From Symbiodinium sp. CCMP2592 (lineage: Eukaryota; Sar; Dinophyceae; Suessiales; Symbiodiniaceae), in assembly GCA_905221615.1 (NCBI GenBank), contig CAJNDT010005870.1:75001-139000 (forward strand): a stretch of DNA of 64,000 bases, given 5' to 3'. Shown piece after piece: positions 2,760 to 59,038 of this stretch. How positions within the stretch are numbered: the stretch's first letter is position 1; the number at the start of each line of letters is the position of its first letter. Position numbers and translations under genes: made by a program. The notes under the pieces are model-generated. The model did not search any database, was not told the origin of the DNA, and saw only the letters and a list, made by a program, of their open reading frames with translations.

Positions 2760-2849
2760 GTGCTTGTGTTGGCACTACAACTGAGGAAAGGCATCCCCGT
2801 TCACACGGGCACCCTTGATGGTTACATGGACGGGATGGACCTGAAAGAG
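2760..2849 (+). CDS. gene A exon, 5' half, interrupted by the retroelement
   Basis: The open frame reads RKGIPVHTGTLDGYMDGM followed by a few more codons, then meets the retroelement boundary at 2850. Joining 2849 to the sequence after 11596 keeps the same frame open (next residues are acidic, then RLICVDLLPNR). This suggests that one exon was split by the insertion. The exon start is uncertain; an AG at about 2785 is one option. Confidence 0.5.
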
Positions 2850-3085
2850 GACGCAACTCCGCGAACAGCGGATGAAGCTTTATTTTCCCCTGTGTCAAAA
2901 ATTTTGGTTTGTCAAACAAACTCGAAATTTAGGGCGTGATCTTTTGTTGAAGTTCTCTTAACCCATGACATGACAGTTCATGTTTGAGGAATCTCCATGA
3001 ATCTTTACCATGCCGTCAGTTGGCTCCACAGGGTGGTGGGAGGGTAAGAAAAAATTTCCGGCATAAGTCCGGAAAAAAGTTTTGT
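2850..3085 (+). repeat. split direct repeat A1 (left end of retrotransposon)
   Basis: 236 bp matching 11022-11257 with one difference near 2923 (CTCGAAA here, CTCAAAA in A2). It defines the left boundary of the element: upstream flanks of the two copies are unrelated beyond the shared GA. It probably contains the promoter of the downstream ORFs. Confidence 0.95.
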
Positions 3086-3182
3086 GTCGAACGGGGACCC
3101 CGAGGCGTAACAGGTTCGACTTTCAACCTGGCCCTTTTCGACGTTGCCTCTAGGGCTCCGTGCACGCCTCCTTAGGAGGCAG

Positions 3183-5465
3183 ATGGAAGCAGCTCCTGAC
3201 TTCTCTCCTGTGGCTTCAGAGCTACGGGGGCAGGGTCAGGAAGCCCCAGGTGTTGAAGAGTCTGATGCGTGCACCGGCAAGCCGCTGCCTGCTGAAAGTG
3301 AGTTGGGGTTTGATAAGCATCTTGAGCGTCTTTGCGAGGAGCTTGAGGAGGCAGGGACAGGGCGGCCTTTGCCTTCACATCTTGATGCTTTCGTGCCTTC
3401 AGAAATAGATAGTGAGCAGCGAGAAGCTTGTGTGCGCGATCGAGAGTCTGCAAGGGAAGTGGTCAATTGTGCTGACAGCAGCTTGCTTAACGATGCTTTG
3501 GGGGATTCCGTGCTTGCTCTGGGAAGGAGTGTAGTAGACATTCCTTTGCCTTGGGAGCAGGAGAGCATGAGTTTGGTCTTTGGAGAAGATGATTCAGTAA
3601 CAAAGCTTTTGGCAGGTCTCCCGAAGCACATACCAGTGCCTGCTGTGTCCAGCTCCAGTATCCAGCCTTCAGACCTTGTTGCCGAGCCACCGGCAAAGCG
3701 TGCGCGACAGATGCCTGAGAGTGGGGAGTGTTTCAGGGTTGCTATTTCTTCAAGGGCCTACGACAGTTACGAGGAAAAGGAGGAGGCTCAATGGCGACGT
3801 GCTCTTGAGAAGTGGCTGGTCATTCTTACTGAGTGCCCTGGTTCGTCATATATCGGAGAAACGGTTGCCATCCAAAAAACTGATGACGCAATTGAAACTT
3901 TGCGTGAACTCTTTGGGCGAAAGAGTGGCAGTACAGTCATGAAAAGGGGATCGGCCCTCATGGGATACCTCTCATGGGGGCGAAAGGAATGCAGGGGCAG
4001 TGACCTTTTCCCTTTCAAGTCCTCGCATCTGGATGGATACTTGAAGCAGCTGAAGAGAGAGAAGCGGCCAGCCGGGGCTTTCACCAGTTTCCAGGAGTGT
4101 GTGAATTTTGCAATACATGTGGTCGGCATTGCTGTCGATGAGTCCGTCATAGGACCAAAGCAAAGCACTGTGTGGAGCCATTGGAGTAAAGGTCTTATTG
4201 GTCAGGCACAGTTGACCAAGGCAGAGCGGAAGCAGGCCACAGTCCTGCTTGTGGCATATGTTGCAGCCCTGGAACGTTTGCTTGAAGATGAATCGGTCAA
4301 TAGCTTTGATCGTTATGCCTGCGGTGCCATCTTGTTTGGGATCTTTTCCAGGAGCCGAGTTTCGGATTTGCGAAAGACTTTCGGTTGGTTCCTTGACTTC
4401 AGTGAACTTGTAAGCGGAGGCGAAGGTTTCATTGAGTGCAAGACCCGAGATCACAAGACGGCCAATGCTGTGGCGCATACAGGCTTCAGCATGCCTTTGG
4501 TGGCGCCCGCGCGGGGTGTTACATCTTCGGCTTGGGCTGTGACATGGGCCAAGGTTGCAGATGAGGTAGGTTTGGGTTTTAGTTCCACCCGAGTAGGACC
4601 CGTGCTACCTGCGCCTGATCAGAAGGGGGGCTGGACTCGACGATGCGTCGATTCAGGAGAGGTCACCAAGTGGATGCGTGCGTTACTTGACAAGGCCGGG
4701 TGTGATGTGCCTGAGTCGTCGACTTCGCATGCCATCAAGGGGACTTCTTTGAGCTGGTGCTCTAAGTTTGGAATGGATAAGCATACCCGCCTGCGATTAG
4801 GACACCACAGCAGTGGCGACGGATCCTTGGATGCTTATGGGCGCGACAACCTTGCGCCAGCCCTCTTGAAATACACCGAAATGTTAGGAAGCATCAGGCG
4901 AGGTGTGTTCATGCCTGACTTGAGCAGATCGGGACGGTTCGCCGATCGTCCGATTGTTAAAGTCGAAGTATCAGAAGACGAAACTGCATCACCGATCGTG
5001 CCTGTGAGTGCGGCTTCTGATGAGGAGAGATCGTTAGGCAGGACCACTGAGTCGTTCGAGAAGGTCGATGCTGTTGCCAATCCTTCAGGGGTCTCTGCAG
5101 CTTGCGGAGAACAGGACTGCGAGAGTGAATCGAGCGACAGCTCCAGTGAGTCGGAGCCTGAGTCCGGAGATGAATGGGTCAAGGGCGAGGACTTCCGACA
5201 TCCAGCGAGCAAGCCTAGCACCTGGAGGCCTGAGGCCACCATGTACAAACATTCTAGGACTGGTGTTGTGCATCTCATGAGTGCTGGGAGTTCAGATGGG
5301 CTTTTTGTTTGTGGGAGGGCCCTCACCAATGATCATGTAGAAGTCAGTGGTGTGCCTTTCCTTGAGTTGCGGAAGTGCAAGCAGTGCGATTCGGGTCGTC
5401 CTGTTAGAGATGTTGGCAGCTTGAATGTCGCGCTGCAGCAGATCATGAACTGTAGAGAGAAGTGA
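3183..5465 (+). CDS. tyrosine recombinase of the retrotransposon
   Basis: The 760-residue protein should catalyse integration of the circular cDNA by strand exchange. Tyrosine-recombinase residues are visible in order: R392 in the SRVSDLR box, H516 and K519 in HAIKGT (an HxxK variant of the usual HxxR), H541/H542 in LGHH, and the likely nucleophile Y552 in DAYGRD. The N-terminal half is acidic and probably binds DNA or is regulatory. The C-terminal 200 residues hold an acidic Ser/Glu-rich linker and a final Cys-rich stretch (VCGRAL...KCKQC) that may bind zinc. The first ATG is at 3183; the frame is open from about 3144 without an earlier ATG. It is the first ORF after A1, 286 bp ahead of the Gag-like ORF. 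Lys in place of Arg in HxxR is found in some recombinases and need not inactivate it. Confidence 0.85.
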   Translation: MEAAPDFSPVASELRGQGQEAPGVEESDACTGKPLPAESELGFDKHLERLCEELEEAGTGRPLPSHLDAFVPSEIDSEQREACVRDRESAREVVNCADSSLLNDALGDSVLALGRSVVDIPLPWEQESMSLVFGEDDSVTKLLAGLPKHIPVPAVSSSSIQPSDLVAEPPAKRARQMPESGECFRVAISSRAYDSYEEKEEAQWRRALEKWLVILTECPGSSYIGETVAIQKTDDAIETLRELFGRKSGSTVMKRGSALMGYLSWGRKECRGSDLFPFKSSHLDGYLKQLKREKRPAGAFTSFQECVNFAIHVVGIAVDESVIGPKQSTVWSHWSKGLIGQAQLTKAERKQATVLLVAYVAALERLLEDESVNSFDRYACGAILFGIFSRSRVSDLRKTFGWFLDFSELVSGGEGFIECKTRDHKTANAVAHTGFSMPLVAPARGVTSSAWAVTWAKVADEVGLGFSSTRVGPVLPAPDQKGGWTRRCVDSGEVTKWMRALLDKAGCDVPESSTSHAIKGTSLSWCSKFGMDKHTRLRLGHHSSGDGSLDAYGRDNLAPALLKYTEMLGSIRRGVFMPDLSRSGRFADRPIVKVEVSEDETASPIVPVSAASDEERSLGRTTESFEKVDAVANPSGVSAACGEQDCESESSDSSSESEPESGDEWVKGEDFRHPASKPSTWRPEATMYKHSRTGVVHLMSAGSSDGLFVCGRALTNDHVEVSGVPFLELRKCKQCDSGRPVRDVGSLNVALQQIMNCREK

Positions 5466-5751
5466 TCGAGTTTGTCCACGTGGGGCAAAAGAAAGCGAAG
5501 TGCGCTTGAAGAGCAGATGAAGTTCATCTGGCAGTCAAGTCCGGTTGCGAGTGCAAGTTTCTGAGGAGCTATGTTATGCTCGAAGTTTTGCTCAAGTGGA
5601 GACCATTGGTGAACAGGCATGAGTGTGCTTTTCGAATGAGTAGAGACATGACGGAGACACATGTTAGGAGCGAGTTGTGAACTGACATGTGACTTCATGT
5701 TTTGACATAACTTGTGCTCGGTAGTCTGTGCTGGTGACTTGGTGAGGGATC

Positions 5752-6960
5752 ATGGGCTCGTTAACGGAATCTACAGCGGCCTTCGCATCAAGGGCTAAAG
5801 AGATTGGCTTGACTCAAGCCAATGTGGCCACGATGACGGGGACCGGAGTGGATACGCTTTCCAAATTAGCTTTTGCAACAGTTCCGCCGGGCCAGTCACC
5901 GAGCGACGATCAGGTACAGCGGCTCTTCGGGGCAACGCCCATCACGGCAGGGACGATGGCTGCAGCAAAGCGCTTGATCTTTGAGGCCCATACCCTCGTA
6001 GTCCAAGAGTTAAAAACTCGGGTTCAGAGGGGGGATTCTGGAGCACCTTCGACGCTTGCCACAGCAGAGAGGGAAGAGCGCATCACAGAGCAGCGTGCAA
6101 GGATCACAGGCCTTTTGCATCGTGGAGTCGAAGAGCCTAGCCATGCCTCTTACGACTTGGTGTACGCCATGTTGTCCGCGGATTCCTTGACGTACTTAGG
6201 GCCAGACAGGTTTCCGACCCGACAGTCCGAACTTCAGGGTAAGAAGCCCGGGAAGGAGCTCACCATCGACGGGAACAGTGTGACGGTGAGAGACAAGGTG
6301 CCTCATCAAACCTGCACGACAGGGACCGAGCTTGAGCTTACGCAGGCTCTGAGGCGGCGAGCCTTAGCATTTGATTTAGTCAAGTGCGCCAGTTATGACA
6401 CCATGAATCGGTATCACTCGTCGTTGATCCATCGACTGCAGGAGTTGCCACCGCCTACTTACGTAAAGATTTCGGTGGCACAAGTGCTTAGGGCAGACAG
6501 GGCAGCTTTCACTCGCATTGCCGAAAGCCTACCCTCGATCAAGCGTCAGCCTGATGGGGCTTTGCCTCTGGATCGAGCCCTTGAGAACATTCTTCAGGAT
6601 CCCAGCATCAGCTTCCACTTGTTGCCGTTGAAAGGTGGCGAAACCGATGATAACAAGCGGAAGTGGACAGATGATGCCAAAAAGACCGATGATTCGACCA
6701 AGTGGAAAAAGAATGGCAAGGGCAAAGGAAAGGGCAAAGGCAAGGATCAGCCAGGAGTCAAAGGAGCCAAATTCATCAAAATGCCGAAGCAGCTGGTCGG
6801 CAAAGCCAGCGAGACCAACGAAGGGAAGAGGCTGTGTTGGGCATACAACATTGATGGGTGTCCCAATGCCGCTGACGGCGAGGAGTGTCCTCGCGGCTGG
6901 CACTTGTGTTGCGAGCCAAATTGCTTCAAGGCGCATCCGTTGCCCAAGCACCGGAAGTGA
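5752..6960 (+). CDS. Gag-like nucleic-acid-binding protein with CCCH zinc finger
   Basis: The 402-residue protein starts at ATG 5752. The N-terminal 300 residues are mostly helical and of unknown fold. A Lys/Gly-rich basic stretch follows (about residues 300-330, including KGKGKGKGK). The C-terminal finger is C362-x7-C370-x8-C379-x4-H384, followed by more Cys and His. Its position upstream of Pol, basic tract and zinc finger fit a Gag that packages element RNA. It ends with TGA at 6958-6960, and the same frame then stays open into Pol. Confidence 0.75.
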   Translation: MGSLTESTAAFASRAKEIGLTQANVATMTGTGVDTLSKLAFATVPPGQSPSDDQVQRLFGATPITAGTMAAAKRLIFEAHTLVVQELKTRVQRGDSGAPSTLATAEREERITEQRARITGLLHRGVEEPSHASYDLVYAMLSADSLTYLGPDRFPTRQSELQGKKPGKELTIDGNSVTVRDKVPHQTCTTGTELELTQALRRRALAFDLVKCASYDTMNRYHSSLIHRLQELPPPTYVKISVAQVLRADRAAFTRIAESLPSIKRQPDGALPLDRALENILQDPSISFHLLPLKGGETDDNKRKWTDDAKKTDDSTKWKKNGKGKGKGKGKDQPGVKGAKFIKMPKQLVGKASETNEGKRLCWAYNIDGCPNAADGEECPRGWHLCCEPNCFKAHPLPKHRK

Positions 6961-6966
6961 CAGCCA
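6958..6966 (+). promoter_or_regulatory. possible stop-codon readthrough site between Gag-like and Pol frames
   Basis: The Gag stop is TGA followed by CAGCCA. The six bases after the stop fit the CARYYA context known to promote readthrough (best described for UAG). From 6961 to the Pol ATG at 7012 the frame is the same and has no other stop, so readthrough would give a Gag-Pol fusion. Independent initiation at 7012 is equally possible from sequence alone. Confidence 0.4.
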
Positions 6967-7011
6967 GCCGCCTCGGCTGTACCGGAGCCTGAGTCTTATC
7001 TTCAAAAAGTG

Positions 7012-10000
7012 ATGGCTAGGGTTAAGGGGGTCTCTTTAGATGAATGTCTCGTCTTGGAGGTCTCGCCGGGGTCGGGGCGATTGACTGCATGCCTCAAGCA
7101 GCGTCAGCTTGATAACAGTTTTTCCGTTGATAGAACAGCCGGCAAGTGCTGTGCACCACGAATTGTTGTTGACTTGTGTACAGAGTCGGGTCGCAAGCAG
7201 TTCCAGGAGATTTTGACCGAAGAAAATTTGATGTATGTTCATTTCTATCCGCCCAGTAATACTACAAGCCGTGCCAGATTGCGTCAATTTGCAGGAGCCC
7301 CTGCAATCCTTCGGAACGAAACCCATCCTGACGGAGTTCCAGGGTTGGGGCTAGCCGATCGTACTAGAGTGAGTGATGCCAATGCTTACCTGCGTGCTGT
7401 GGCTGCAGCTTGCAAAACATGTCACGAACGCGGAGTCCTTTTCAGTATCTGCAACCCAGAGTCAAGTTTTATGTGGGCTACCAAGCCTTTGCGACTTTTG
7501 CTTCAGGAAGTTCCTCTCTTCACAACGCACTTTCACCTTTGCAGCTTCGAATCGCCCTTCAAGAAGGCCATGCGGATGCTGCACTCACTACCAAAATTCT
7601 TGGAGTTGCATCGTCCATGCGCCGGTGGACATGTACATAAGTTTTGGTCTAAGGGTGTGGGCTGCAAGTTCGACCGTGATTTGGATTTTCCTTGGGGTTT
7701 GTGCAAGGCAATGTCACAGCTTCTGCAAGATCAACTACTTGACATGGGGGCCAAGCCTCTGCCTACTGACTTAAGTCAGACAACAGCCACAGTTGCAGCG
7801 GCCAGAGCTGTTGCTGGGTGGCAGAGCAACAAGCGTGTCCTTCCTCTGGTTCCGGAGTTCAAGCATGTTGTGAATGTTCGTGGCAGCTTCCCTGCTGCGT
7901 CTATGCAAGGTCTTCAAGTAGGCTGCAAACTCCCTGCATCGTGGGAGGTACCTGCATCTGCAAATGTTGACCCGTGCTTTGTGTCGTCGGTGCCACAAGG
8001 TTCCAAAATCCTTCGCATCCTCACGGTGCCGGGGGAAATGTCAGAGGATGCTCCGGACAACTTGAGTGCAGCTCAGGCTGGCCGCGTATTGCCGAGCCTT
8101 TCTGCTCCGCCCGAAGATGCTCACCCAGCTGAGAAGCTTGCTTGCATCATGTTGCAGTGGAACACTCGCTTCAGCCAAGAGGAGATGCGAACTCTTCTGG
8201 ACATGTTGCCGCAAAAACATCAGACCAGAGCCAGGGGGAGCTGTGACGAACAGTCCAATCAGTTTCTGTGTGGAGCCTATGCTCATGGGCCCATGACGGG
8301 CTGCAAGAACTTGACACGAGATATGCCTTGGTGCACTGCCGTGCTTTGCAAGCATGTTCGTGATAACGCTCCGGGTTTTTGCTTCTCTGCCGTGGGCTAC
8401 CTGTGCAATGTGCGCGCAGAGGCCCATCGAGATTTGCATAATGAGCCAGGGACAAAAAACCTGGTCATGGCAACGCATGATTGTGCTGGCGGTGGACTGT
8501 GGCTTGAGGAGGCAGGTGGGCCTGTTGCGATGGTCGTCGATAAAACTCAGCGTGCTGGGAGGTTTCATGACTTGGCAGTTGGAAGGCCTTTTATCTTCGA
8601 ACCGAAGCGTTGGCATGCTACTCAACCGTGGCGAGGTGACAGAGGAGTGATCGTTGCATACACCCCAGTGGGAGTGACCAAACTTGCAACTGCCGACAAA
8701 GGGTTCTTAGAAAATTTGGGTTTTCCCTTAGGCCCCTCTTCTGGTTCTAGTGATGTGCCTCCCAGGGTTGCAAAAGTACAAAAAGGAAGTATCGTTTTCG
8801 GCGTGTACCATGAACCGGAGGAGTTTGTGGCGAGAGCGTTGAGCGTGCAACATCCTTGTCACTTGGAAAGCCTTTTGCCATCAGAGCTTGTTGAGGCCAT
8901 ACGGGCAAATCACTCCAAAGATGTCGCTACGCTTGGGCGCGAGCGCACCGAGATGCTCAAGAAATGGCTTGCTCGCGCTGAGGAGCTGGAAACTGCCGAA
9001 AAACAGCTCAAGGGATCTTTCAGCTCCCATCGACGTCAAGTGTTGTGCAACAAGCGGCTGCTCTTGATGAAAGAGATGCTTGACAGTGTGGGACACGAGG
9101 ACGAGGACTTGATTTCTGATCTGTCAAACGGTTTCGACTTGACCGGACCCTTGCCCCGATCTAATGCCTTTAAGAATAAGTACCGCCCGGCAGCCATGGC
9201 CGAGGAAACGCTTAGGAAAAGTGCGGGATTAGTTAGGGGTCAGGTTTTGGCTTCGGTTAAAAGTTCAGGGGACGAGATCGTGGATCGAGGTGTACTGGCA
9301 GCCACCGAGAAAGAGTTGTCCAAAGGCTTCATCGAGGGGCCGGTGTGTGCTAGTGACATCCCTGCTGATGGGACGGTCACGCATCGCTTCGGAGTGATCC
9401 AAGGAGAAACCGAGGAGGGTCCCAAAGTGAGACCGATCGACAACTACTTGAGTTCGCTGGTAAATTCGGTTGTGTCCCAAAGTGAACAAGTGCCCGTCCA
9501 CACGTTGGACGTAGTTGCTGGCATGTTGGCGATGTGGTTGCACTTGTCTCCTTTGAAGTCCTTGCGTGAGGGACTTGTGTGCAAATGTTGGGACCTCAGT
9601 GCCGCATACAAGCAACTACCGCTTAGTGACAAAAGTTTCGAAAAGGATAGCTTCTTCGTGATTTACTGCCCCCGCACTCGCAAGCATGTCATCTACAAGC
9701 AGCGGGTCATGCCCTTCGGGGCGAAAGCCTCAGTGACTGCCTTCATCCGTTGTGCATTCGGAATTTGGCGGCTGGGGGTAAAAATGTTTTCCTTGGTCTG
9801 GAGTTTTTATTTTGACGATTTTCTATCGGCTTGCAAGCCGGAGGAGCGTCGACACGTGGAGGTCGTCATCAGCACGCTTTTCAGGATTCTAGGTTGGGAT
9901 CTTTCGCTAGATAAACTTCTGCCCTATGACGTGTGCTGTAAAGTCCTTGGAATCAAGATCGACGTGGCGGAGGCTCGCCTGGGACTCTTCAAGCTGGCGA

Positions 10001-10782
10001 ACACTGAAAAACGTGTGATGGAGTTAACCGCTGCCTTGGACGAAGTCTTGCTAGCCGAGAGGTTGTCGCATTCCGACTGCGAGAAACTTCGGGGTAGGCT
10101 GCAGTTTGCTTCCGGCCAGTTGTTCGGTCGAAGGGCGAAGGTTGCTCTGCACCAGCTTAGCCGGCATCATGGAGGTCGGTTGAGCGAGGCCACTTCTAAG
10201 GCGTGTCGCTTCTTGAGGCGTTTGGTTTCGTCAAACCAGAGCCGCTTGATTAGTCGACAACTTGGCAATGTCGTGCATGTGTATGTGGACGCATCCTTCA
10301 GCGATGAGGGCAAGCTTTGTGGCATCGGGGGCATGGCTTATGACCATAAAGGCTCTTTGCTCCAATGGTTCGGTGAAAACCTTGATGCTTCGCTTGTTTC
10401 CCAAGTCATGACGTCTTTTGAGCGTGTCAAAGAGACCGTCATTTTTGAGCTGGAGGCTTTGGCGGTACATGTTGCGCTGAAGTGTTTCTTCAAAGCTCTT
10501 AAGGGCAAGAATGTGGTTGTGTTCACCGACAACGAAGGTGTTCACGGCGCCTTCGTGAAGTGCTGGACTGTGAGTCAGTTTGCAACGCATGTCATCGATG
10601 CGGTATGTGAGATCGAAGAAAGCCTTGGCTTTATGATCTGGTACGATCGAGTTCCATCTGCAAGTAATCCTTCGGATCCGCTTTCAAGAGGAGTGTGGAA
10701 TCTGCCGACACCTGTGCGTGTTAGGCCTGCGGCTAAGTTCTTCGAGGACCTTCTTGAAAAGTCGAAGTCACGACTGAAGTGA
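7012..10782 (+). CDS. Pol polyprotein: degenerate C5-MTase-like region, 2OG-oxygenase-like region, RT, RNase H
   Basis: The 1,256-residue Pol starts at ATG 7012. Residues 13-155 resemble a DNA cytosine methyltransferase core: SAM-loop-like LEVSPGSG (15-22), SVDR (38-41), DLCTESG (54-60), YPPSNTTSRAR (79-89) at the motif IV position, and NPESSFMW (148-155). The catalytic Pro-Cys is Pro-Ser (S82), so methylation activity is doubtful. Residues about 440-560 carry H472-x-D474...H535...R544, the iron and 2-oxoglutarate ligand pattern of Fe(II) dioxygenases. RT follows, with D861 (WDLSAAYKQ) and YFDD at 933-936. RNase H has D1093, E1146, D1173 and D1222. RT and RNase H copy element RNA; the roles of the first two regions are unknown. 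It overlaps nothing and ends 58 bp before B1. Confidence 0.85.
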   Translation: MARVKGVSLDECLVLEVSPGSGRLTACLKQRQLDNSFSVDRTAGKCCAPRIVVDLCTESGRKQFQEILTEENLMYVHFYPPSNTTSRARLRQFAGAPAILRNETHPDGVPGLGLADRTRVSDANAYLRAVAAACKTCHERGVLFSICNPESSFMWATKPLRLLLQEVPLFTTHFHLCSFESPFKKAMRMLHSLPKFLELHRPCAGGHVHKFWSKGVGCKFDRDLDFPWGLCKAMSQLLQDQLLDMGAKPLPTDLSQTTATVAAARAVAGWQSNKRVLPLVPEFKHVVNVRGSFPAASMQGLQVGCKLPASWEVPASANVDPCFVSSVPQGSKILRILTVPGEMSEDAPDNLSAAQAGRVLPSLSAPPEDAHPAEKLACIMLQWNTRFSQEEMRTLLDMLPQKHQTRARGSCDEQSNQFLCGAYAHGPMTGCKNLTRDMPWCTAVLCKHVRDNAPGFCFSAVGYLCNVRAEAHRDLHNEPGTKNLVMATHDCAGGGLWLEEAGGPVAMVVDKTQRAGRFHDLAVGRPFIFEPKRWHATQPWRGDRGVIVAYTPVGVTKLATADKGFLENLGFPLGPSSGSSDVPPRVAKVQKGSIVFGVYHEPEEFVARALSVQHPCHLESLLPSELVEAIRANHSKDVATLGRERTEMLKKWLARAEELETAEKQLKGSFSSHRRQVLCNKRLLLMKEMLDSVGHEDEDLISDLSNGFDLTGPLPRSNAFKNKYRPAAMAEETLRKSAGLVRGQVLASVKSSGDEIVDRGVLAATEKELSKGFIEGPVCASDIPADGTVTHRFGVIQGETEEGPKVRPIDNYLSSLVNSVVSQSEQVPVHTLDVVAGMLAMWLHLSPLKSLREGLVCKCWDLSAAYKQLPLSDKSFEKDSFFVIYCPRTRKHVIYKQRVMPFGAKASVTAFIRCAFGIWRLGVKMFSLVWSFYFDDFLSACKPEERRHVEVVISTLFRILGWDLSLDKLLPYDVCCKVLGIKIDVAEARLGLFKLANTEKRVMELTAALDEVLLAERLSHSDCEKLRGRLQFASGQLFGRRAKVALHQLSRHHGGRLSEATSKACRFLRRLVSSNQSRLISRQLGNVVHVYVDASFSDEGKLCGIGGMAYDHKGSLLQWFGENLDASLVSQVMTSFERVKETVIFELEALAVHVALKCFFKALKGKNVVVFTDNEGVHGAFVKCWTVSQFATHVIDAVCEIEESLGFMIWYDRVPSASNPSDPLSRGVWNLPTPVRVRPAAKFFEDLLEKSKSRLK

Positions 10783-10840
10783 TTTGCACAAGTGGTGCGG
10801 CGGCAAGTAGTGTGGGCGCTCTCAGTGCCAAGGACTGGGG

Positions 10841-11023
10841 CAGGGCAAGGCACTGCGATGCCCCAATCACGATAAAAAGGTGAGCCGCTGCGTGAGCCGA
10901 ATTTTTATTAGTTGTGAAGTATATATTCGGATGAAGAATGACATATCCCGAATTTTTATATGTATATTCTTTTGTATATATTGAATGTGGAACGCCCGGT
11001 TGACACATAAAGGGAAAATAAGA
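10841..11023 (+). repeat. split direct repeat B1
   Basis: 183 bp identical by eye to 11414-11596. Its last two bases (GA) are also the first two of A2, forming the presumed circle junction. It is AT-rich (TATATA-like stretches) in its second half. Confidence 0.95.
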
Positions 11024-11257
11024 CGCAACTCCGCGAACAGCGGATGAAGCTTTATTTTCCCCTGTGTCAAAAATTTTGGTTTGTCAAACAAACTCAAAAT
11101 TTAGGGCGTGATCTTTTGTTGAAGTTCTCTTAACCCATGACATGACAGTTCATGTTTGAGGAATCTCCATGAATCTTTACCATGCCGTCAGTTGGCTCCA
11201 CAGGGTGGTGGGAGGGTAAGAAAAAATTTCCGGCATAAGTCCGGAAAAAAGTTTTGT
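11022..11257 (+). repeat. split direct repeat A2
   Basis: 236 bp, one mismatch to A1 (2850-3085). It lies directly after B1, giving the B1-A2 junction typical of split direct repeats. Confidence 0.95.
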
Positions 11258-11413
11258 CCCACCCAGCCCGCCCTGGTTGTTTCCTGCACAAGTTGTGCTG
11301 CGAAGTTCGCTATGGTGCAAGTGGCATCTTTCTTTTCACAATACCCATTGTACAAATGAAACTTGGCGATGTTGTTGAACTGAACAAAGAGCAAGCGCCC
11401 TGGGCCCGGAGCC

Positions 11414-11596
11414 CAGGGCAAGGCACTGCGATGCCCCAATCACGATAAAAAGGTGAGCCGCTGCGTGAGCCGAATTTTTATTAGTTGTGAAGTATATATT
11501 CGGATGAAGAATGACATATCCCGAATTTTTATATGTATATTCTTTTGTATATATTGAATGTGGAACGCCCGGTTGACACATAAAGGGAAAATAAGA
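11414..11596 (+). repeat. split direct repeat B2 (right end of retrotransposon)
   Basis: Copy of B1. After ...ATAAGA at 11596 the sequence diverges from the B1/A2 junction and resumes the host exon frame (GGACCGGCTG), marking the right boundary. Confidence 0.95.
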
Positions 11597-16319: not shown

Positions 16320-18932
16320 GAACGTAAGCATCAAGCCAACAAAAGTTCGACCACCAGTTCATTTTCGACACCCGATTGCCGGGAAATTTCTTTCAAGGTG
16401 GGCCTGCGTTCCAACACCTCATCGCACCCCAGTGTGAGCAAACTCTTGTGCGAGTATGTGCGCCGGGTTGCCCCGGGCCATCCTTTCACTTCCCTGATGC
16501 TGGGCAAGAACCTCGCAGGCAAGGTGCATACCGATAGAAACAATGAGCCAGGACTACCGAATGCGGTCTTGAAGATTTCCTCCTTCGAGCAAGGGGGAGT
16601 GTGGATCGAATCACCTAGTGGCTCCGTCGCTTGTCCTGATCCTGGCCACCCCGAGCTTTTGGGAAATGTTCTTGACTTCGAGGGCCGACGAATAATCTTT
16701 GATCCGAGTGGTAGGCACTGTCAAGCTCCATGGTGTGGGGGACCCAGGATCACGCTTGTTGCCTATGCGATACGCGATCACCACAAACTTCTTGACGATC
16801 AGAAGAAACAGCTTGTAGACCTTGGTTTCGGCCTCCCTGGAAGCTCCCCAGAGTGCTGCCCAACAGCCGGTCCCGAGGCAGCCACCCGTAAGTCTGGTTT
16901 AGGCCCCAGCTCCTTGACTAAGCCACCACCTGGGATCCCGTCCTGCAGCATGCCAGAAAGTGGCCGTATGCACAAGGTGGCCGTAGGCATCCCTTGGAAA
17001 CCTCAGGAGTTCATTGAGCAAGCACTGAAAGCTGGGCACCCCCGTCACCTCTTGGACGGTGTGCCATCACATTCCAAGGCGGCCATCGACCGTCTTGCTG
17101 ACATGTCGCTTCATGAGATAGGAGCCCAACGCACCGAGAGGCTCCGGCATTGGATCAGCAAGGCCCGTGAGCTGGAGGCCGAGGAAGAGGAGTTGCGTGA
17201 CTCAATGCCGCAACATTGCAAACGTGTCCTGGGGCGGAAGCGGCTGGTCCTTTTTAGGACCATGCTCGAGGAGTGTGGCCACGAGGACCTAGAGATAGCG
17301 AATGACATCGCCAAGGGTTTTGACCTCAGTGGTGCGATCCCGAGGAATCCTGCATATCGCCCCAAGCTGTCACCTGCTTCCTTATCCGTATCTGATCTCC
17401 GGAGCTCTGCAGCTGTGATGAGGGAAGCAACTCTTCTCGCCACCAAAAGCTCCGGGGACCCCGAACTTGATGAGGCCCTCATGGCGGCCACTGACAAGGA
17501 GGTCGCCAAGGGGTGGTTACGAGGACCCATCGATCCTGCTTCGCTAGATCCTAATGCTGTCCTCTCGCGCCGCTTCGGCGTTTGGCAGGGCGGCAAGTGT
17601 AGGCCTATAGATGACTTCAAGGCCTCTGGGGTTAACTCAACGACTTCAGCCGAAGACTCGGTGACTGTGCACACGGCGGATGCAATCGCCGCTTCCATTG
17701 CCTACCGTCTCAAGCGCGACCCAAAGTGCCGACGGCACGGCGGGCTCGAGATGAAATCTTATGACTTACACAAGGCGTATAAGAATCTTCCTTTGAGCAC
17801 TTCGGCGGTGGAGGAAGCTTATCTCTCGGTGTACAACCCCCGGTCGGGGAAAGCGGAGATCTACGAGCAGTGCGTGTTGCCCTTCGGCGCTCGTGCGTCG
17901 GTCCACTCGTTCTGCAGAACTTCACTTGGCATCTGGACGATTGGGGCGATTCAGCTGGCTTTGATGTGGTCAGTGTATTACGACGACTTTGTCGGCAACG
18001 AAGTCCCGCCACTTACACGGCTCTTTGACCTTTGTGCTGAATCGCTTTTTCAGATCCTTGGCTGGGACACGTCTCCAGACAAGCCTACCATCTTCGGAGG
18101 CGTGGCAAAAGTCTTAGGCCTGGAGTTTGACTTGCGCGAATCCTACCTCGGCAACTTCTACATGAGAAATACGACGACTCGACGCGAGGAGCTGAGAGAA
18201 AGTCTTTCTTCTATCATCGAAAAAGGAGTGCTGGCTAGGAAAGACTGCGAGAGGCTGAGGGGCCGCCTGCAGTTTGCCGCCAACCAGGTTGCTGGGAAGA
18301 AGGCTGGCATCGCATTCAAGATCCTGTCCAAACATCTTACGGAACGAAGCCCGAGCATCGGAGACAATCTGAGGGCTGCACTTCTGTTCCTGAGGGACAG
18401 ATTTCTTGAAGGGCCCCCGAGGGCTCTGAGTGCCAACGTCTTGCATCTTTGGCATGTATATGTGGACGCTTCTTGTGACAACGATCGCATCGGTCTTGGA
18501 GGAGTTCTTATCTCGGACAATGGAACGAAAGTTGGGCATTTTAGCGTGTGGGCCTCTGATGAGCTACGACTTCTCGTTGGCCCCGAGAGCAAGAACCCCA
18601 TCTTCGAGTGCGAGTGTTTGGCAGTACTCATGTGCATACATGTATGGAAGGGACTCCTTAAGGGATGCAACATTGTCGTCTTCTCGGACAACGAGGGCAC
18701 TCGTGCCTGCATGATCAAAGGAGCATCAGACAACTCAGTCGGGATGCGCATTGTAGATGCCACTCATGATGCCATCGACGCCGCGAGCTGCATACCTTGG
18801 TTTGAGCGCGTGAATACCGCATCGAACATAGCAGACGATCCCTCTCGAGGAATATCTGACGAAAGCCTTGGTCAGCGTTTCGAAGTGGATGCGCTGAGCA
18901 TCGCAAAGTCTGCATTGGTTCCATGGGGATGA
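16320..18932 (+). CDS. 5'-truncated Pol of a second retroelement: 2OG-oxygenase-like region, RT, RNase H
   Basis: The frame is open from a TAA at 16317-16319 to TGA at 18930-18932 (870 residues) with no early ATG, so the 5' part is missing. It aligns in order with the second half of the Pol at 7012-10782 but is clearly divergent. The oxygenase-like ligands are kept: H70-x-D72 (HTD), H133 and R143, numbering from the first open codon. RT has YYDD at 553-556, and RNase H has VDAS, ECECLA, FSDNE and ADDPSRG. No recombinase, Gag or split repeats are found around it, so it is probably a dead fragment, although the remaining frame is unbroken. Confidence 0.85.
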   Translation, partial: ERKHQANKSSTTSSFSTPDCREISFKVGLRSNTSSHPSVSKLLCEYVRRVAPGHPFTSLMLGKNLAGKVHTDRNNEPGLPNAVLKISSFEQGGVWIESPSGSVACPDPGHPELLGNVLDFEGRRIIFDPSGRHCQAPWCGGPRITLVAYAIRDHHKLLDDQKKQLVDLGFGLPGSSPECCPTAGPEAATRKSGLGPSSLTKPPPGIPSCSMPESGRMHKVAVGIPWKPQEFIEQALKAGHPRHLLDGVPSHSKAAIDRLADMSLHEIGAQRTERLRHWISKARELEAEEEELRDSMPQHCKRVLGRKRLVLFRTMLEECGHEDLEIANDIAKGFDLSGAIPRNPAYRPKLSPASLSVSDLRSSAAVMREATLLATKSSGDPELDEALMAATDKEVAKGWLRGPIDPASLDPNAVLSRRFGVWQGGKCRPIDDFKASGVNSTTSAEDSVTVHTADAIAASIAYRLKRDPKCRRHGGLEMKSYDLHKAYKNLPLSTSAVEEAYLSVYNPRSGKAEIYEQCVLPFGARASVHSFCRTSLGIWTIGAIQLALMWSVYYDDFVGNEVPPLTRLFDLCAESLFQILGWDTSPDKPTIFGGVAKVLGLEFDLRESYLGNFYMRNTTTRREELRESLSSIIEKGVLARKDCERLRGRLQFAANQVAGKKAGIAFKILSKHLTERSPSIGDNLRAALLFLRDRFLEGPPRALSANVLHLWHVYVDASCDNDRIGLGGVLISDNGTKVGHFSVWASDELRLLVGPESKNPIFECECLAVLMCIHVWKGLLKGCNIVVFSDNEGTRACMIKGASDNSVGMRIVDATHDAIDAASCIPWFERVNTASNIADDPSRGISDESLGQRFEVDALSIAKSALVPWG

Positions 18933-45768: not shown

Positions 45769-46460
45769 AGCAAGGTCGGAATTCCGACCTTGCTCCAACA
45801 ACTCAGATCCAACCCATTCTTAGCTTTCGCCAAAAACGAGCCGGAGTCACAACTCGTCAAATCTGACGAATGCTGACACCCCCACAAAACCGCTCTCAAT
45901 TTCATCAAAAACGCGCCGGTGTCGCAATTCGCCAGATCTGGCTAATGATGACACCCCCACAAAACCGCTCTCAATTTCGATCAAAACGGGCCTTCTTCGG
46001 ACTCCGTCGGATCCGACGAAGCCTGAATAACGTCACAGGACGCTTTTTTTCATCAAAAAAAGGCCGGTGCCGCAACTCATCAAATTTGATGAATGCTGGC
46101 ACCCCCTCAAAACCCGCGCTCATTTTCGATCAAAACGGGCCTTATTCAGACCTCCTCCGATCCGAGGAAGCCTGAAGCAACCTCAAAAAGCTCGCTACTT
46201 TTCGATCAAAACCCCTTTGTTCAGACCTCCTCCGATCCGAGGAAGCCGAAACAACGTCAAAGAACACTCAGAAGCTCCGAATTGGTGGCCCGGATTTCAT
46301 CAAAAACGGGCCTTATTCAACCCTCCCTGAATTCAGGGAAGCCTGAACAAGCCACAAAAGCGCTCTACTTTTCGATCAAAACCCCTTTGTTCAGACTCCG
46401 TCGGATCCGACGAAGCCTGAACAAGCCTCAAAGAACACTCAAAAGCTCCGAATTGGTGGC
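45769..46460. repeat. degenerate tandem array beside the viral PolB-helicase gene
   Basis: It starts with a perfect 26-bp palindrome (45769-45794). Units of about 60-130 bp then contain TTTCGATCAAAACGGGCC, a small palindrome (CTCCGATCCGAGG or GTCGGATCCGAC) and GAAGCCTGAA. AAGCTCCGAATTGGTGGCCC occurs at 46273 and 46443. The array overlaps the last codons of the helicase frame. Confidence 0.8.
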
Positions 46461-48402
46461 CCGGGAGCAGCCCATGTACAGGTGCTTGAGCGTGAAGTGC
46501 GGGCTCTCCACGTCGTAGAGCCAAACCCGCCCCCTCAGGGTCAGGCCCTGGACCGAAGCATACGTAATCGCGCTGCAAAGCCGGGTGTGCTTCAGCAGCT
46601 CCGGGCCCGCGAAGCACTGCCCGCTCTCCAGGCGAACCACGTCCCCCTCCACCGCTTCCACGGTCAGGAAGGTGCCCTTCTGCACCTTGCCGCCCGCCCC
46701 GATCAAGCGCAGCCCCGGCCAGACCCTCATGGTCTGCGGCGCATTCGTCGGCACCGCCCCGCGAGCCTCGTACTGCACCACCAGGGCACCTGCAGGCGCG
46801 AGCCGCCGGTTCTCCCGCTCGTTGATCTGCAGCCGCTTGGCATGGGAGATGACCAGGCTCACGTCCGGCTCCCCCCGCCTCGGGAAGCGCCGCCGGGCCT
46901 CCCGCACCGCCTCAGGCAGCGGCACCTGCTCCGGCTCGTCCACTTTGAGCCAAGTCAAGAACTCGAAGATGCGCTCGTCGAAGCGCCAGCGCTCCGAGAG
47001 CTCGTGGCACCAGCCCCCCGCCAGATCGTGCAGCAGCTGGCTGTCTTTGAGCTCCAAGAGCAGAAACCGAATCTTCTTGTTCATGCTCAGACAAGCTATG
47101 TCAGCCCACAGGGGAGTATCTAACTGAGTGAGCTCTTCGATGACCAGCCAAGTTGCGCTGCAGTGCCCGTTCCGCACATTGCGCCGCACCCAGTGGTCCG
47201 CCGTCTGAGCCCCCAGGCCCACGTTTTGCACCGCCGCATGGGTCTTCGTAATGATGTGCACCGTGTCCCCATGCTCTCTCAGAGCCTCGACGATCCTCTT
47301 GGCCAGGTGCGTCTTGCCCGTCCCCGGAAAGCCCGTCAGCAGCAGGCTCTCTCCGTCCAGGCAGTGCACCACCGGGCCCTCCACCCGCCGCCACTGCGGC
47401 TTCGCTCGGATGGGCTCCGCCTCCATGCTGGGCTCGCGATACTGGCCCTTCAGCCCGGTGACCTCCTCGTAGCGATACACAGGCGTGCCGTCCCGGTGCG
47501 ACATCTTCAGCAGCCGCTCCACGGCGGGCCGGTGCTTCTTGGGGACGTCCTGCATCACCAGGCAATCGGTCTTGATGCATTTGAGGTACCGCCGGGGCAC
47601 CTCCGCCAGCGCCTGGCGAATGCGCGCCACGGCGACGTACTCGGCCCCCATGATGTAGTCGTGCACCGGGCGGTAGCTGCTGTTCGAGAGCAACTCCGTC
47701 ACAAAGACGTGGTCCCAGTGCATCCCCCCGGCCGCATCCATGAAGGTCTGGCGCCAGCTGCACCTCTCGCCGTCTACTTGATGATTTGAAGTCTTCATAG
47801 AATAGACTAGTTCTAGGTTCCTGGCAAACAGCCCCACGAGGCTGTTGACGGCCAGCTTCGCATAGTGCTCCTCACCTGTGGGCCAATTCTGCTCCATGCG
47901 CTGCAGCACCTGTTCCATGCACTGCTGATCTACGTCCACTTGAAGTGCTGCCACTGCGCCAGCCCCGCCTCGAGCATGTAGGCGCACACGGGCTTGGCAT
48001 ACCAGCCCCTCCCCACGAAGGGCAGCCGGTCTTGCGGTGGTCGCAGGGCAGGTCGACCCACATGAGATCCGCCAGCTTGCCCTCCTCCGTGGGGACGATG
48101 CAGTCCAGGGGGCAAAACACCGGCAGGGGGAAGCGGGCGTTGGCCAGGCCGTTCTTGCGGCAGCGGCACACGTCGATGCCCTGGCAGGGTCGGTCGAGAT
48201 CCCACTTCTGCAGCCGGAAGACCAGCGGCGGCAGCCTGGGCGAGGCCGCATAGTTCTGGTACACGTGGCGACAGAACCGGCTCTCCAGGGTGGTGCTGTG
48301 GTTGCCCTCCAGGCTCGTCTTGGTGCGGTGACACTCCAGGCATAAAGCCTGCAGCTCCTGCTGCTGTCCGGAGAAGGACTGGGCCACGGGGCAGGATGGC
48401 AA
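46428..48402 (-). pseudogene. viral family-B DNA polymerase (C-terminal part) fused to superfamily-1 helicase, frameshifted
   Basis: Minus strand. It reads LCLECHRTKTSLEGN (HNH-like Cys/His), DVCRCRKNGL...PLPVF, then after two frame changes (about 48025 and 47938) HYAKLAVNSLVGLFARN, matching the PolB motif KxxxNSxxG, and CIKTDCLVMQD at the motif C position (KTD where most PolB have DTD). A helicase follows: Walker A GFPGTGKTH (about 47310-47335), Walker B-like WLVIEELTQ (about 47120-47150) and C-terminal motifs TYASVQGLTL and YMGCSRAT. It would replicate viral DNA. It has no proper N-terminus, lacks an exonuclease domain and needs frameshifts, so it is decayed unless the assembly has errors. 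Confidence 0.7.
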
Positions 48403-48444
48403 GGGATGTGGCCGCAGGTAGAAACACGAGCGACTCCCAGGTCT

Positions 48445-48747
48445 ATGGCGGTCTTATGTGAGATGAAGCTGGACCTGCAGCTCACGAAGCGCGATGGCCT
48501 GTGGCTCCTGGAAAACCCGGAGGCGGAGATCCCGCTGGCCTACCACCACGAGCTGGCCGACGAGGAGGGCCAGGAGATCCTGCGGCTGCTGGCCCGGCGG
48601 TGGGCGCGGCCCCAAAGGGTCCTTGTGCGCTTCGACCCCGAAACCAAAACGGTGCTCAGCTACCTGTGCGAGGTCGTCCAGCGGGCCAGCGAGCGCTCGT
48701 ACTTGGGCAAGCGAGGACTCAAGATCCATGTAAATGGAGGAGCGTAG
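48445..48747 (+). CDS. small unknown protein of the viral segment
   Basis: 100 residues from ATG 48445, facing away from the PolB-helicase gene. It includes MKLDLQLTKRDGLWLLENP and LLARRWARPQRVLVRFDPET. Mixed alpha/beta, no domain recognised. Its end overlaps the start of the next viral ORF (ATG 48734), the compact spacing usual in DNA viruses and unlike the host genes nearby. Confidence 0.5.
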   Translation: MAVLCEMKLDLQLTKRDGLWLLENPEAEIPLAYHHELADEEGQEILRLLARRWARPQRVLVRFDPETKTVLSYLCEVVQRASERSYLGKRGLKIHVNGGA

Positions 48748-48796
48748 ACAGAATGGTTTCCGCGTCAAACCCTCATTTGGTCAGGTGCTAGGCTAC
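48734..48796 (+). pseudogene. 5' end of viral ORF split by LINE insertion
   Basis: ATG 48734 starts a frame of 21 codons that runs into the LINE at 48797. The rest of the gene lies at 52511-53788. It overlaps the upstream 100-residue ORF by 14 bp in another frame. Confidence 0.75.
48784..48796. repeat. target-site duplication, left copy
   Basis: GGTGCTAGGCTAC, repeated exactly at 52498-52510. The two copies flank the LINE. Confidence 0.9.
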
Positions 48797-49145
48797 TTTT
48801 TGTCACTTTGATCGCAGCAGCGTCGAAGCTGCCAAGCGGCAGGTCTTGAGCAGGCATGTTTATGCCCGGTACTTGAAGTAGCACACTGTGTCAACTAAGT
48901 AACACAGTCTCTTGGACTGGCAACAACAGAACCGCCCCGAAGAGCCAAGCGAACTGTACAGAACTCGAAGCGTGCCTAATTTCGCTCATGTGTTATCACA
49001 CAAAGCGCTAGCTAACATTGTAGGAACAAGTGCAAAATGCACTCCATAGATGCACAAGTGAATCAAACTACCATCACCACTCCAGTGCAGCGAATCCCAA
49101 TTCACCAAAAGCACTCTGTACAAGAAGCATGATGCATGTCTGGAT

Positions 49146-51218
49146 TCACTCACCACTCCTGCGAGCAAAGATCATGTAAACTTTGCGTTCTAACCATTCT
49201 GGAGCTCGCATGTGGAATACCGCAGGCCTGTCATCATCGCAAATCCATACGCCCCTCGCTGGAGCATAGAGAAAAGCCTGATAGTGTCCAGAAGAATATG
49301 TTGGTCCATGATGACATATACCACCCACGATCTCGTAAGAGCAGTGTTGCACATCAGTTTGATCATTCATGAACTGAGGAATCTGCAATCGAGGATGCTC
49401 CAATGAGCACCTGAACTCATGTTTCACAATACCCACTTGCTCCGACTGAACTGTCCGCTCCAGACGCAACGCGAGAACATGAGGAGGATGTACGAAAGCA
49501 CATGTGTGAGTTTGCTGACTCCATCTATCTAGCATGGACTGCAAAGAGTCCCCAGAATGTGAAGAATGAGACTCGCGCAATGAGCATTCGCGGAACCATA
49601 ATGTAATCGCCTCGGAGCCCGAATCACCCACTTCCGTCACTGTGGCTGGTAACCCTTCCATGGGGCTCCTGGCCTGCCATACTCCACAGAGCCACGGAAC
49701 CTGTATTCGCGAACTGAGAAAGGAAAAGAACTCACACACATCATGTTGACGATCAGGGTATGGCCAGTTAAACAGTAGGATCTTCCATAGCATCATGTGG
49801 TAAATGTGCACCGGCTGGCCTGTTTTGGCAAGCAAAAGACGCCATGCCTTCTCACCTCGACCGAATCCCGTACACCAATCTGGATGAAAGGCCCTAGCCA
49901 CGCACCATGACAAACACTGAATGAGCGCATGCATGTAGCAGAAATTCTGGGGGTTTGAAAGAATGAGTTGAGGCACCATCCCAAGTATTCGCGCACCATC
50001 TTGTTCAGGATCGATTTCTTCCAACCCTCGCGCTTGTACGACACTGCAATCAGCTGCCACACCGATGAACCCATGAGAACATGTAGAAGCTCCCATGTGC
50101 GCTGTGCTTCTTTGGATCTTTGGCTGATCTCGAGCAGGAACGTGGCCAATCCTTTCATCTCTGACGATAATGGTCGGGTGGAGTGGAACCTCATGACGGT
50201 CTGCCCCAGTAGCTTCGTCTTCAATTCTTCCAAGAGCTGGAGTATCTCCATATCCTTCAACGGTGCCCGCTCCGACACCGTCACGAGCATCTTGGACTCC
50301 GGATCCCACTTTTGGTAAGGCCAACCCGTTGTCGGATCTCTCCACCCCACTTCCTGAAGTTTGCGGGCTTTGTCCGCATCCCCTGCCACTTGCCCGACTC
50401 GGTTGATCACTTCCTGAACCATGGCGATTGCAAGCGTTGCTCGCAACGTGGGAATCTCGTCCACATCGGTGTTCATGGCCTTGTCCTTCCACTCCTTTGC
50501 CTTGTTGAACATCATCTGTAGTGCAGTATGTTCGCCTGGCCTCATCCATAGAACAAAGCTGAAGTCTTGTTTGAGGACTTGGACCTCGTTGTCCACCCGT
50601 AGCGCAAGCCGAGCTACCGCTGCAAGTAGAGTCTGCATGTACTGCTCCCACTGCTCTTGATCCATCGTTGACGTTGTTGCTGGTGTGGTTACGAATGGAC
50701 TTTGATGGTATCGGACTGGGGGACCGAAAGAGCCTTGCTGCTGTGGACTTGGTCCGAAGCCTCCTTTTTTTCCTTTGCCCTTGCCCTTGCCCTTGATGAA
50801 CTTTGCTGCCGCTTGTGTCGGCTCTTCCTGAGACTCTCGTTTGCGTAGAGGAGGATTGGGATTTATCGCGCCGAACATCTCCATGATTTGATCCATCGGC
50901 GCCCCCATGGTACCCAGCATTCACTAAACTACTCAAAGCCGATACTTGCCAAGCCACCGTGCATTTGTGACGTTTCCAAGATTTGGATGCATCCGCGCAC
51001 AATGAGCATCGTGGGGAGGGTGTAAACCATGATTTAAGCAATGATTCGCATTGGGACTGCAGCAAGTCAAACTCCTTCTTGTGAGTGTAGCGGTAATGCT
51101 GTTTCATCAGACCTGGAGAAACCAGCCATTGGTTACACACTCCACAATGATGTAATAAGTGTGCAGCAATCTCAGGCATGTCGTGAATAGCCGCCGGATT
51201 CTCAGCCATGGTCGACAT
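49146..51218 (-). CDS. LINE ORF with C2H2 finger and C-terminal ubiquitin-specific protease domain
   Basis: 690 residues from ATG 51218 to a stop at 49146. The N-terminus has a Cys/His finger (HHCGVCNQWLVSPGLMKQHY). Residues about 100-400 are Ser/Gly/Arg-rich and overlap another coding frame. The C-terminal 270 residues match a peptidase C19 plan: Cys box NPQNFCYMHALIQ (about 49920-49962), QHDVCEFFSFL resembling the USP QQD box, and His box GHYQAFLYA followed by GVWICDDDRP. The catalytic Cys and His are both present. Such enzymes remove ubiquitin from proteins; for a retroelement this could stabilise its own proteins or counter host turnover, which is inference. The frame is unbroken. Confidence 0.72.
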   Translation of the reverse strand: MSTMAENPAAIHDMPEIAAHLLHHCGVCNQWLVSPGLMKQHYRYTHKKEFDLLQSQCESLLKSWFTPSPRCSLCADASKSWKRHKCTVAWQVSALSSLVNAGYHGGADGSNHGDVRRDKSQSSSTQTRVSGRADTSGSKVHQGQGQGQRKKRRLRTKSTAARLFRSPSPIPSKSIRNHTSNNVNDGSRAVGAVHADSTCSGSSACATGGQRGPSPQTRLQLCSMDEARRTYCTTDDVQQGKGVEGQGHEHRCGRDSHVASNACNRHGSGSDQPSRASGRGCGQSPQTSGSGVERSDNGLALPKVGSGVQDARDGVGAGTVEGYGDTPALGRIEDEATGADRHEVPLHPTIIVRDERIGHVPARDQPKIQRSTAHMGASTCSHGFIGVAADCSVVQARGLEEIDPEQDGARILGMVPQLILSNPQNFCYMHALIQCLSWCVARAFHPDWCTGFGRGEKAWRLLLAKTGQPVHIYHMMLWKILLFNWPYPDRQHDVCEFFSFLSSRIQVPWLCGVWQARSPMEGLPATVTEVGDSGSEAITLWFRECSLRESHSSHSGDSLQSMLDRWSQQTHTCAFVHPPHVLALRLERTVQSEQVGIVKHEFRCSLEHPRLQIPQFMNDQTDVQHCSYEIVGGICHHGPTYSSGHYQAFLYAPARGVWICDDDRPAVFHMRAPEWLERKVYMIFARRSGE
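49975..50920 (-). CDS. LINE internal ORF overlapping the USP ORF
   Basis: From ATG 50920 (MLGTMGAPMDQIMEMFG) a second frame reads a coherent helical protein. It has a basic Gly/Lys tract (KGKGKGKKGGFGPS), EQWEQYMQTLLAAVARLALR, KMLVTVSERAPLKDMEILQL and SVWQLIAVSYKREGWKKS. It stays protein-like to about 49975 and formally ends at 49793. It probably is a nucleic-acid-binding, Gag/ORF1-like unit. It lies wholly inside the 690-residue frame, so this stretch is either dual-coding or joined by frameshifting. Confidence 0.65.
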
Positions 51219-52497: not shown

Positions 52498-52510
52498 GGT
52501 GCTAGGCTAC
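52498..52510. repeat. target-site duplication, right copy
   Basis: Exact copy of 48784-48796, at the 5' end of the minus-strand LINE. Confidence 0.9.
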
Positions 52511-53788: not shown

Positions 53789-53802
53789 GTATGTAAAGAG
53801 AG

Positions 53803-55032: not shown

Positions 55033-55141
55033 TGATATTGGCGTTTTGAGCGATTTGTTTCGCCTTTTTTGCCCTCTTCGAGCACCTTAGAACACGTCGC
55101 AAGCCCAGACCGCCGGCGCAGAGCCCGGGCACTAGATGTAA

Positions 55142-58070: not shown

Positions 58071-58074
58071 GGCA

Positions 58075-58877: not shown

Positions 58878-59038
58878 GGGGAGAAGACCAGGCCCTAGCT
58901 GTGGCCCCGAGACCTGGCATGCGGCCTGGGTTCTTTGAGCAAAAGATGCTTTGGTGAGAAGAGAGTTGGTGCAGCTATCAACGGCACTGGGAGGAAGGCT
59001 TGAGAAGTGGTGACATGAACTGTCGCTCCAGCTCCAGA

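Follow-up and report, generated by a model that had tools for sequence, protein, structure and literature searches.

The element and its Pol polyprotein

A stretch of 64,000 nucleotides from the coral-symbiotic dinoflagellate Symbiodinium sp. CCMP2592 (GenBank assembly GCA_905221615.1, contig CAJNDT010005870.1, positions 75,001 to 139,000 of the forward strand; hereafter the window) carries at positions 2844-11596 a DIRS-like retrotransposon, whose Pol polyprotein combines a methyltransferase-like domain, a TET/JBP-like Fe(II)/2-oxoglutarate (2OG) oxygenase domain and a reverse transcriptase (RT). By computation, the oxygenase domain has a beta-helix fold, keeps its metal and 2OG residues, is under purifying selection and is linked to RT. 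Comparison of repeats within the window revealed split direct repeats in the order A-coding-B-A-B, the layout of DIRS-like elements (PMC5890265), together with three open reading frames (ORFs). RT and RNase H, as expected of DIRS-like elements, were both found with Pfam, the RT_RNaseH match lying under the curated cut-off. Since the two copies of repeat A are 98.8% and those of repeat B 100% identical, the element suggests a young insertion. Its features are as follows.

2844-3085 (+): terminal repeat A, copy 1, 98.8% identical to 11016-11257 over 242 bases
3144-5465 (+): tyrosine-recombinase-like ORF, 773 amino acids, open frame, HAIK..GHH..Y by motif reading
5752-6960 (+): gag-like ORF, 402 amino acids, open frame, assigned by position and a Cys/His-rich C-terminus by reading
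7012-10782 (+): Pol polyprotein, ATG at 7012, frame open from 7009
7012-7746 (+): methyltransferase-like domain, Pol residues 1-245, from motif order, profile A6 and a nonsynonymous-to-synonymous ratio (pN/pS) of 0.134
7255-7257 (+): codon 82 (AGT, Ser), where C5 methyltransferases have Cys, by sequence reading
8224-8736 (+): TET/JBP-like Fe(II)/2OG oxygenase domain, Pol residues 405-575, from AlphaFold2 (AF2), Foldseek, VIA and invariant ligands
8425-8433 (+): HxD, residues 472-474, putative Fe ligands, by sequence reading
8614-8643 (+): H535 (putative Fe ligand) to R544 (putative 2OG ligand), by sequence reading
9556-9954 (+): reverse transcriptase, RVT_1, Pfam E 1.2e-08, residues 850-982 counted from 7009
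10438-10545 (+): RNase H, RT_RNaseH, Pfam E 0.0032, under the curated cut-off
10841-11023 (+): terminal repeat B, copy 1, 100% identical to 11414-11596 over 183 bases
11016-11257 (+): terminal repeat A, copy 2, pairing with 2844-3085
11414-11596 (+): terminal repeat B, copy 2, pairing with 10841-11023

Neither the recombinase-like ORF, assigned by motif reading, nor the gag-like ORF gave a match in Pfam searches. Relatives of both ORFs are found together at six other loci of the same genome (L032, L038, L039, L044, L049 and L050).

The oxygenase domain and its copies in the genome

Numbered from the ATG at 7012, Pol has H at 472, D at 474, H at 535 and R at 544, just where the initial annotation of this DNA had placed them, and both regions that it described ahead of the RT do indeed precede the RVT_1 match. 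Its proposal of an Fe(II)/2OG-oxygenase-like fold turned out to be right, and stronger than claimed. Structure prediction and fold search, the check proposed with it, yielded a double-stranded beta-helix, the fold expected of TET/JBP enzymes, over residues 405-575 in the AF2 model of 8101-8778 (pLDDT 83.1, pTM 0.83), and this predicted model matches ABH2, CcTet, TET2, NgTet1 and AlkB in Foldseek and VIA. Profile searches gave fainter signals: the oxygenase domain of one relative matched Pfam Tet_JBP with an E value of 7.8e-06, under the curated cut-off, and PHROGs and NCBIfam searches with the window segment returned no match. As no Tet_JBP match reaches the curated cut-off, we name the domain TET/JBP-like and not a member of the family.

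A search of the organism's own genome returned at least 150 scored matches to the oxygenase domain, 146 of the 150 being without internal stop; these counts are lower bounds, as 150 of 5020 first-look candidates were scored. The element's own family comprises 19 loci (L002-L020, window copy included), and the HxD...H Fe ligands and the downstream Arg are kept in all 19. Among 27 further loci of 32-41% identity (L025-L051), H, D, N477, H and R are all kept in 27/27, a count favoured by recruitment of these loci through similarity, which selects for conserved anchors. They represent 26 distinct places, because L026 and L032 overlap; L025-L031 were taken by rank and L032-L051 hand-picked for a spread of scores, with the own family and fragments excluded. 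In one further comparison, the Arg was kept in seven of eight sequences.

Selection was assessed by placing the copies on the window codons, with insertions omitted and gapped codons skipped (L014, L016, L018 and L019 have inner gaps). Like the NG86 ratios, pN/pS was pooled over 45 non-independent pairs from 10 of the 19 family loci; the oxygenase had a value of 0.092, the methyltransferase-like domain 0.134, the RT together with the segment ahead of it 0.114 and the linker 0.308. The pair L003-L009 gave dN/dS values of 0.049, 0.071, 0.046 and 0.263, respectively. Over the longer history, both domains look constrained, the oxygenase roughly as much as the RT. Structure prediction, fold search, weak-to-moderate profile matches and selection together support a 2OG oxygenase fold in Pol, and the domain is apparently intact.

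Public gene models of the family, P0008 and P0009, omit the stretch with H535 and R544, which was probably called as an intron; annotation thus hides the oxygenase domain.

The methyltransferase-like domain

The initial annotation had also described the start of Pol as C5-methyltransferase-like, with the catalytic Cys replaced by Ser. The motif letters are present (LEVSPGSG, PPS and NPESS, with Ser82 inside PPSNTTS), but profile matches to the window segment are not: searches against Pfam, PHROGs and NCBIfam with E up to 10 returned nothing, and PF00145, the Dnmt3-type DNA_methylase, matched neither Pol nor the segment at E up to 10. The AF2 model of this domain (pLDDT 40.0) is too poor to use, and its Foldseek and VIA searches, which gave mixed folds with no C5 methyltransferase among the best 50 of each, are uninformative either way. 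Marginal support came from A6, a profile of eight sequences including genome relatives, for which 13 of 14 PDB matches at E <= 10 have the S-adenosylmethionine (SAM) methyltransferase fold (two of the 13 presumably so, the others by name); their E values run from 0.16 to 2.5, with DNMT2 at 1.2, and the alignments cover mainly the SAM motif. When single relatives were searched, the Pfam listing was empty for two of six, and L038 gave weak matches to Methyltransf_23 (0.063) and Methyltransf_25 (0.11).

Comparison with DNMT3-like sequences in hhalign found nothing for a narrow methyltransferase alignment, and the wider A6 had its motif I and PC motif aligned with those of the DNMT3-like sequences, at a probability of 2.6%. 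Residues 1-250 of P0004 scored 53 against a P0011 segment (29.2 ± 4.2 for shuffles, none of 500 reaching the score), with the C-terminal tail as the only part aligned; against a DNMT3-like sequence, 422 of 500 shuffles scored as well. Scans of viral contigs with 2OG, methyltransferase and P0011 queries and of prokaryote genomes with P0004 confirmed no relative, and in phage tblastn searches the 2OG domain found no match and P0004 two, at E 5-6. The case for a writer-like fold, which is suggested by motif order and the marginal similarity of A6 to SAM methyltransferases, is weaker than that for the oxygenase.

The catalytic PC cysteine of C5 methyltransferases is indeed absent from the window copy, which has Ser82, although this replacement is neither fixed nor private. 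Residue 82 is Ser in 11 of the 18 family loci that cover the site, window copy included (five AGT and six TCT), and Cys (TGT) in the other seven; in the 19th locus the site is not covered. A first view that Ser82 was private to the window copy, taken from protein clusters with Cys, was overturned by these genome copies. AGT and TCT lie two bases apart, and a single change leads from TGT to either of them, so that Ser probably had two or more origins; we infer that Cys is the older state. The Glu of motif VI (ENV/ENP) is likewise absent, the window copy having CNP and its family CNP or SNP. Further afield, Cys occurs with ENP in L039, L047, L048 and L049, PPA with EGP in L026, L029, L030, L031 and L032 (the pattern missed L028, which belongs to this family too), and PPW with AHP in L038 and L044.

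The catalytic Cys thus appears to have been lost at least four ways among the relatives, to Ser twice, to Ala and to Trp. Across the two Ser lineages the methyltransferase-like domain nevertheless has a dN/dS of 0.073 (L003-L012), and the Trp copies L038 and L044 differ by five synonymous and two other changes. Together, the Cys variants and the low dN/dS suggest that writer chemistry was repeatedly lost while the domain stayed. In the window copy the writer is probably dead, given Ser for Cys and CNP where relatives have ENP, and since Cys was lost several times with the domain retained, the domain most likely works non-catalytically in the window lineage.

Domain architectures and neighbouring elements

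The order of domains varies among the relatives. Recombinase, gag, methyltransferase-like domain, 2OG domain and RT follow one another in L032, L038, L039 and L044; L049 has the 2OG domain before the methyltransferase-like domain (recombinase, gag, 2OG, methyltransferase-like, RT), as do L047 and L048, in which a methyltransferase-like stretch follows the 2OG domain. L050 shows recombinase, gag, 2OG and RT, with no methyltransferase detected. Nine further long frames were scanned with Pfam: in four (L033, L040, L046 and L051) the 2OG domain is followed by a Copia RT (RVT_2), and the remaining five gave no match at 0.01. Both DIRS-like and Copia elements of this genome carry the 2OG domain. The window itself has a second element (16398-18932, +), a diverged ORF of 844 amino acids that begins with the 2OG domain (34% identity) and also contains the RT (37%); reading of the three forward frames upstream found no methyltransferase-like domain.

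The proteins P0010 and P0014 combine, in one ORF, the 2OG domain with a C5 methyltransferase whose SPCQ and ENV motifs are intact, and in P0015 the end of a 2OG domain is followed by a C5 methyltransferase as in these two. Of the 28 PDB matches of P0015 at E <= 0.01, 26 carry the name DNMT3A or DNMT3B; the other two are a DNMT3C and a different cytosine methyltransferase. These three proteins may belong to the published SymbioDIRS-Dnmt3 elements.

Elsewhere in the window, 46428-52450 (-) contains ORFs with a helicase-type P-loop (AAA_30, 9.3e-10) and a ubiquitin C-terminal hydrolase (UCH, 8.2e-13), as well as C2H2 zinc fingers with a weak RVT_1 match, and is possibly another large mobile element. 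At 52493-59342 long ORFs overlap on both strands; the five scanned gave no Pfam match at 0.01.

Possible function of the oxygenase domain

What might such a polyprotein do? We propose, at roughly even chances, that the oxygenase is a TET/JBP-like base oxidase which acts on the element's nucleic acid as reverse transcription proceeds, and that the methyltransferase-like domain is its partner in a largely non-catalytic role. Action on nucleic acid is suggested by the fusion with RT and methyltransferase-type domains and by the resemblance to TET/JBP. The oxygenase would be tethered to the RT while the element is copied, its substrate would be the element's own cDNA or RNA-DNA hybrid, and it would oxidise the base methyl in new cDNA, from thymine to hydroxymethyluracil (hmU) or from 5-methylcytosine (5mC) to hydroxymethylcytosine (5hmC). 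The copy could thereby mimic hmU-rich host DNA, or be freed from 5mC and escape silencing, and the methyltransferase-like domain could work without catalysis, for instance by binding nucleic acid. Marking or unmarking of element DNA, as the initial annotation had suggested, is a reasonable inference.

The Tet_JBP curated cut-off of 34.9 bits was reached neither by the window (11.7) nor by the best relative (25.7). Shuffling produces a loose HxD..H..R pattern 828 times out of 5000 for the region and 1168 times out of 2000 for the whole Pol, and 12 of the 189 stop-to-stop frames of at least 100 amino acids in the window contain it. Against constraint stand the ratios within the TCT-Ser clade, a recent one of five loci, two of them with indels (0.81, 0.62, 0.19 and 0.55 for oxygenase, methyltransferase-like domain, RT and linker), and the pair L009-L018, which differs in the methyltransferase-like domain by one synonymous and six other changes; in both cases the changes are few.

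The oxygenase might instead be AlkB-like, removing N-methyl groups from element RNA or cDNA and so countering host marks or alkylation damage. ABH2 and AlkB are indeed among the best fold matches, and there is a retrotransposon precedent in the AlkBH5-like domain of orchid Gypsy elements (PMC9289625). However, the RxxxxxR of the AlkB family, a motif described in the same paper, is absent after H535, where the residues are HATQPWRGDRGVIVAYT; the Pfam sequence match that recurs is Tet_JBP and no AlkB model; and in VIA TET2 aligns over more residues and with higher identity than AlkB, though Z is equal. We consider an AlkB-like activity unlikely.

Hydroxylation of a protein, be it the element's gag or RT or a host factor, would fit the matches of L043 to Asp_Arg_Hydrox (2.1e-04) and of L045 to 2OG-FeII_Oxy_3 (0.006), as well as the first-ranked VIA match of the model, a generic 2OG oxygenase. 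It sits poorly with the fusion to RT and methyltransferase-type domains and with best structural matches that are largely nucleic-acid oxygenases, and we judge it improbable. Equally doubtful is an active pair, in which the methyltransferase would make 5mC and the oxygenase convert it to 5hmC, as in phage clusters (PMC12730594). The intact Cys and ENP of L039, L047, L048 and L049 and the union of 2OG domain and C5 methyltransferase in P0010 and P0014 speak for such a pair, but Ser at 11 of 18 loci and a CNP or SNP motif VI make it a misfit for the window copy. Finally, that the motifs arose by chance and mark no oxygenase is extremely improbable: the bare pattern, being so frequent in shuffles and window frames, means little by itself, yet the confident model, the fold matches, the H/D/N/H/R set kept in 27/27 loci and selection place the domain beyond chance.

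Relation to known systems and significance

Retroelements with a cytosine methyltransferase are known among DIRS-like, LINE and Gypsy elements (PMC5890265). One of the closest systems, SymbioDIRS-Dnmt3 (de Mendoza et al., PMC5890265), is likewise a Symbiodinium DIRS-like element with A-coding-B-A-B repeats, a separate recombinase ORF and a methyltransferase-type domain in the Pol ORF together with the RT, whereas the Pol of the window lacks a PF00145 match and the catalytic Cys and has a 2OG oxygenase; the words 'TET' and 'oxygenase' are absent from the main text of that paper. Mobile elements encoding a TET/JBP-type oxygenase are known in fungi, but these carriers are DNA transposons and Helitrons, and the author states that none were found in retrotransposons (PMC12730594). 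The orchid Gypsy elements are retrotransposons with a 2OG oxygenase, but one encoded in a separate ORF of a long terminal repeat element, belonging to the AlkB family with RxxxxxR and acting as an N6-methyladenosine demethylase in vitro (PMC9289625). With the structures of TET2, CcTet and NgTet1, the window domain shares the beta-helix fold and the HxD...H...R set, and with TET2 the string AHRDLHN; it differs in its smaller size, in an identity of 11-19% in structural alignments and in having no profile match over the cut-off, and its activity is predicted. Searches of the open-licence literature found no report of dinoflagellate retrotransposons with a TET/JBP-like or 2OG domain; an earlier mention outside that literature is possible. 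As far as these searches show, the TET/JBP-like oxygenase in Pol of DIRS-like and Copia elements would be the first in retrotransposons.

To our knowledge, the enzyme that makes hmU in dinoflagellates is not established. In their DNA hmU replaces 12-70% of thymine, and 5-hmC has been reported as well; hmU in nature is likely a product of TET-family enzymes, and the reason for its presence in dinoflagellates has been called unknown (PMC6723414). It is a long shot that this hmU derives, directly or in evolutionary terms, from retrotransposon oxygenases of this type; DIRS-like and Copia polyproteins would then hydroxylate thymine in their own cDNA, and an hmU-rich genome would result from mass insertion of marked copies or from a domesticated enzyme. 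That the oxygenase site is kept while the methyltransferase Cys is repeatedly lost hints at which of the two activities is needed by the element. Concrete, expressible candidates for the hmU enzyme would be offered by this large class of retrotransposons, whose base-oxidase-like domain is conserved and apparently active.
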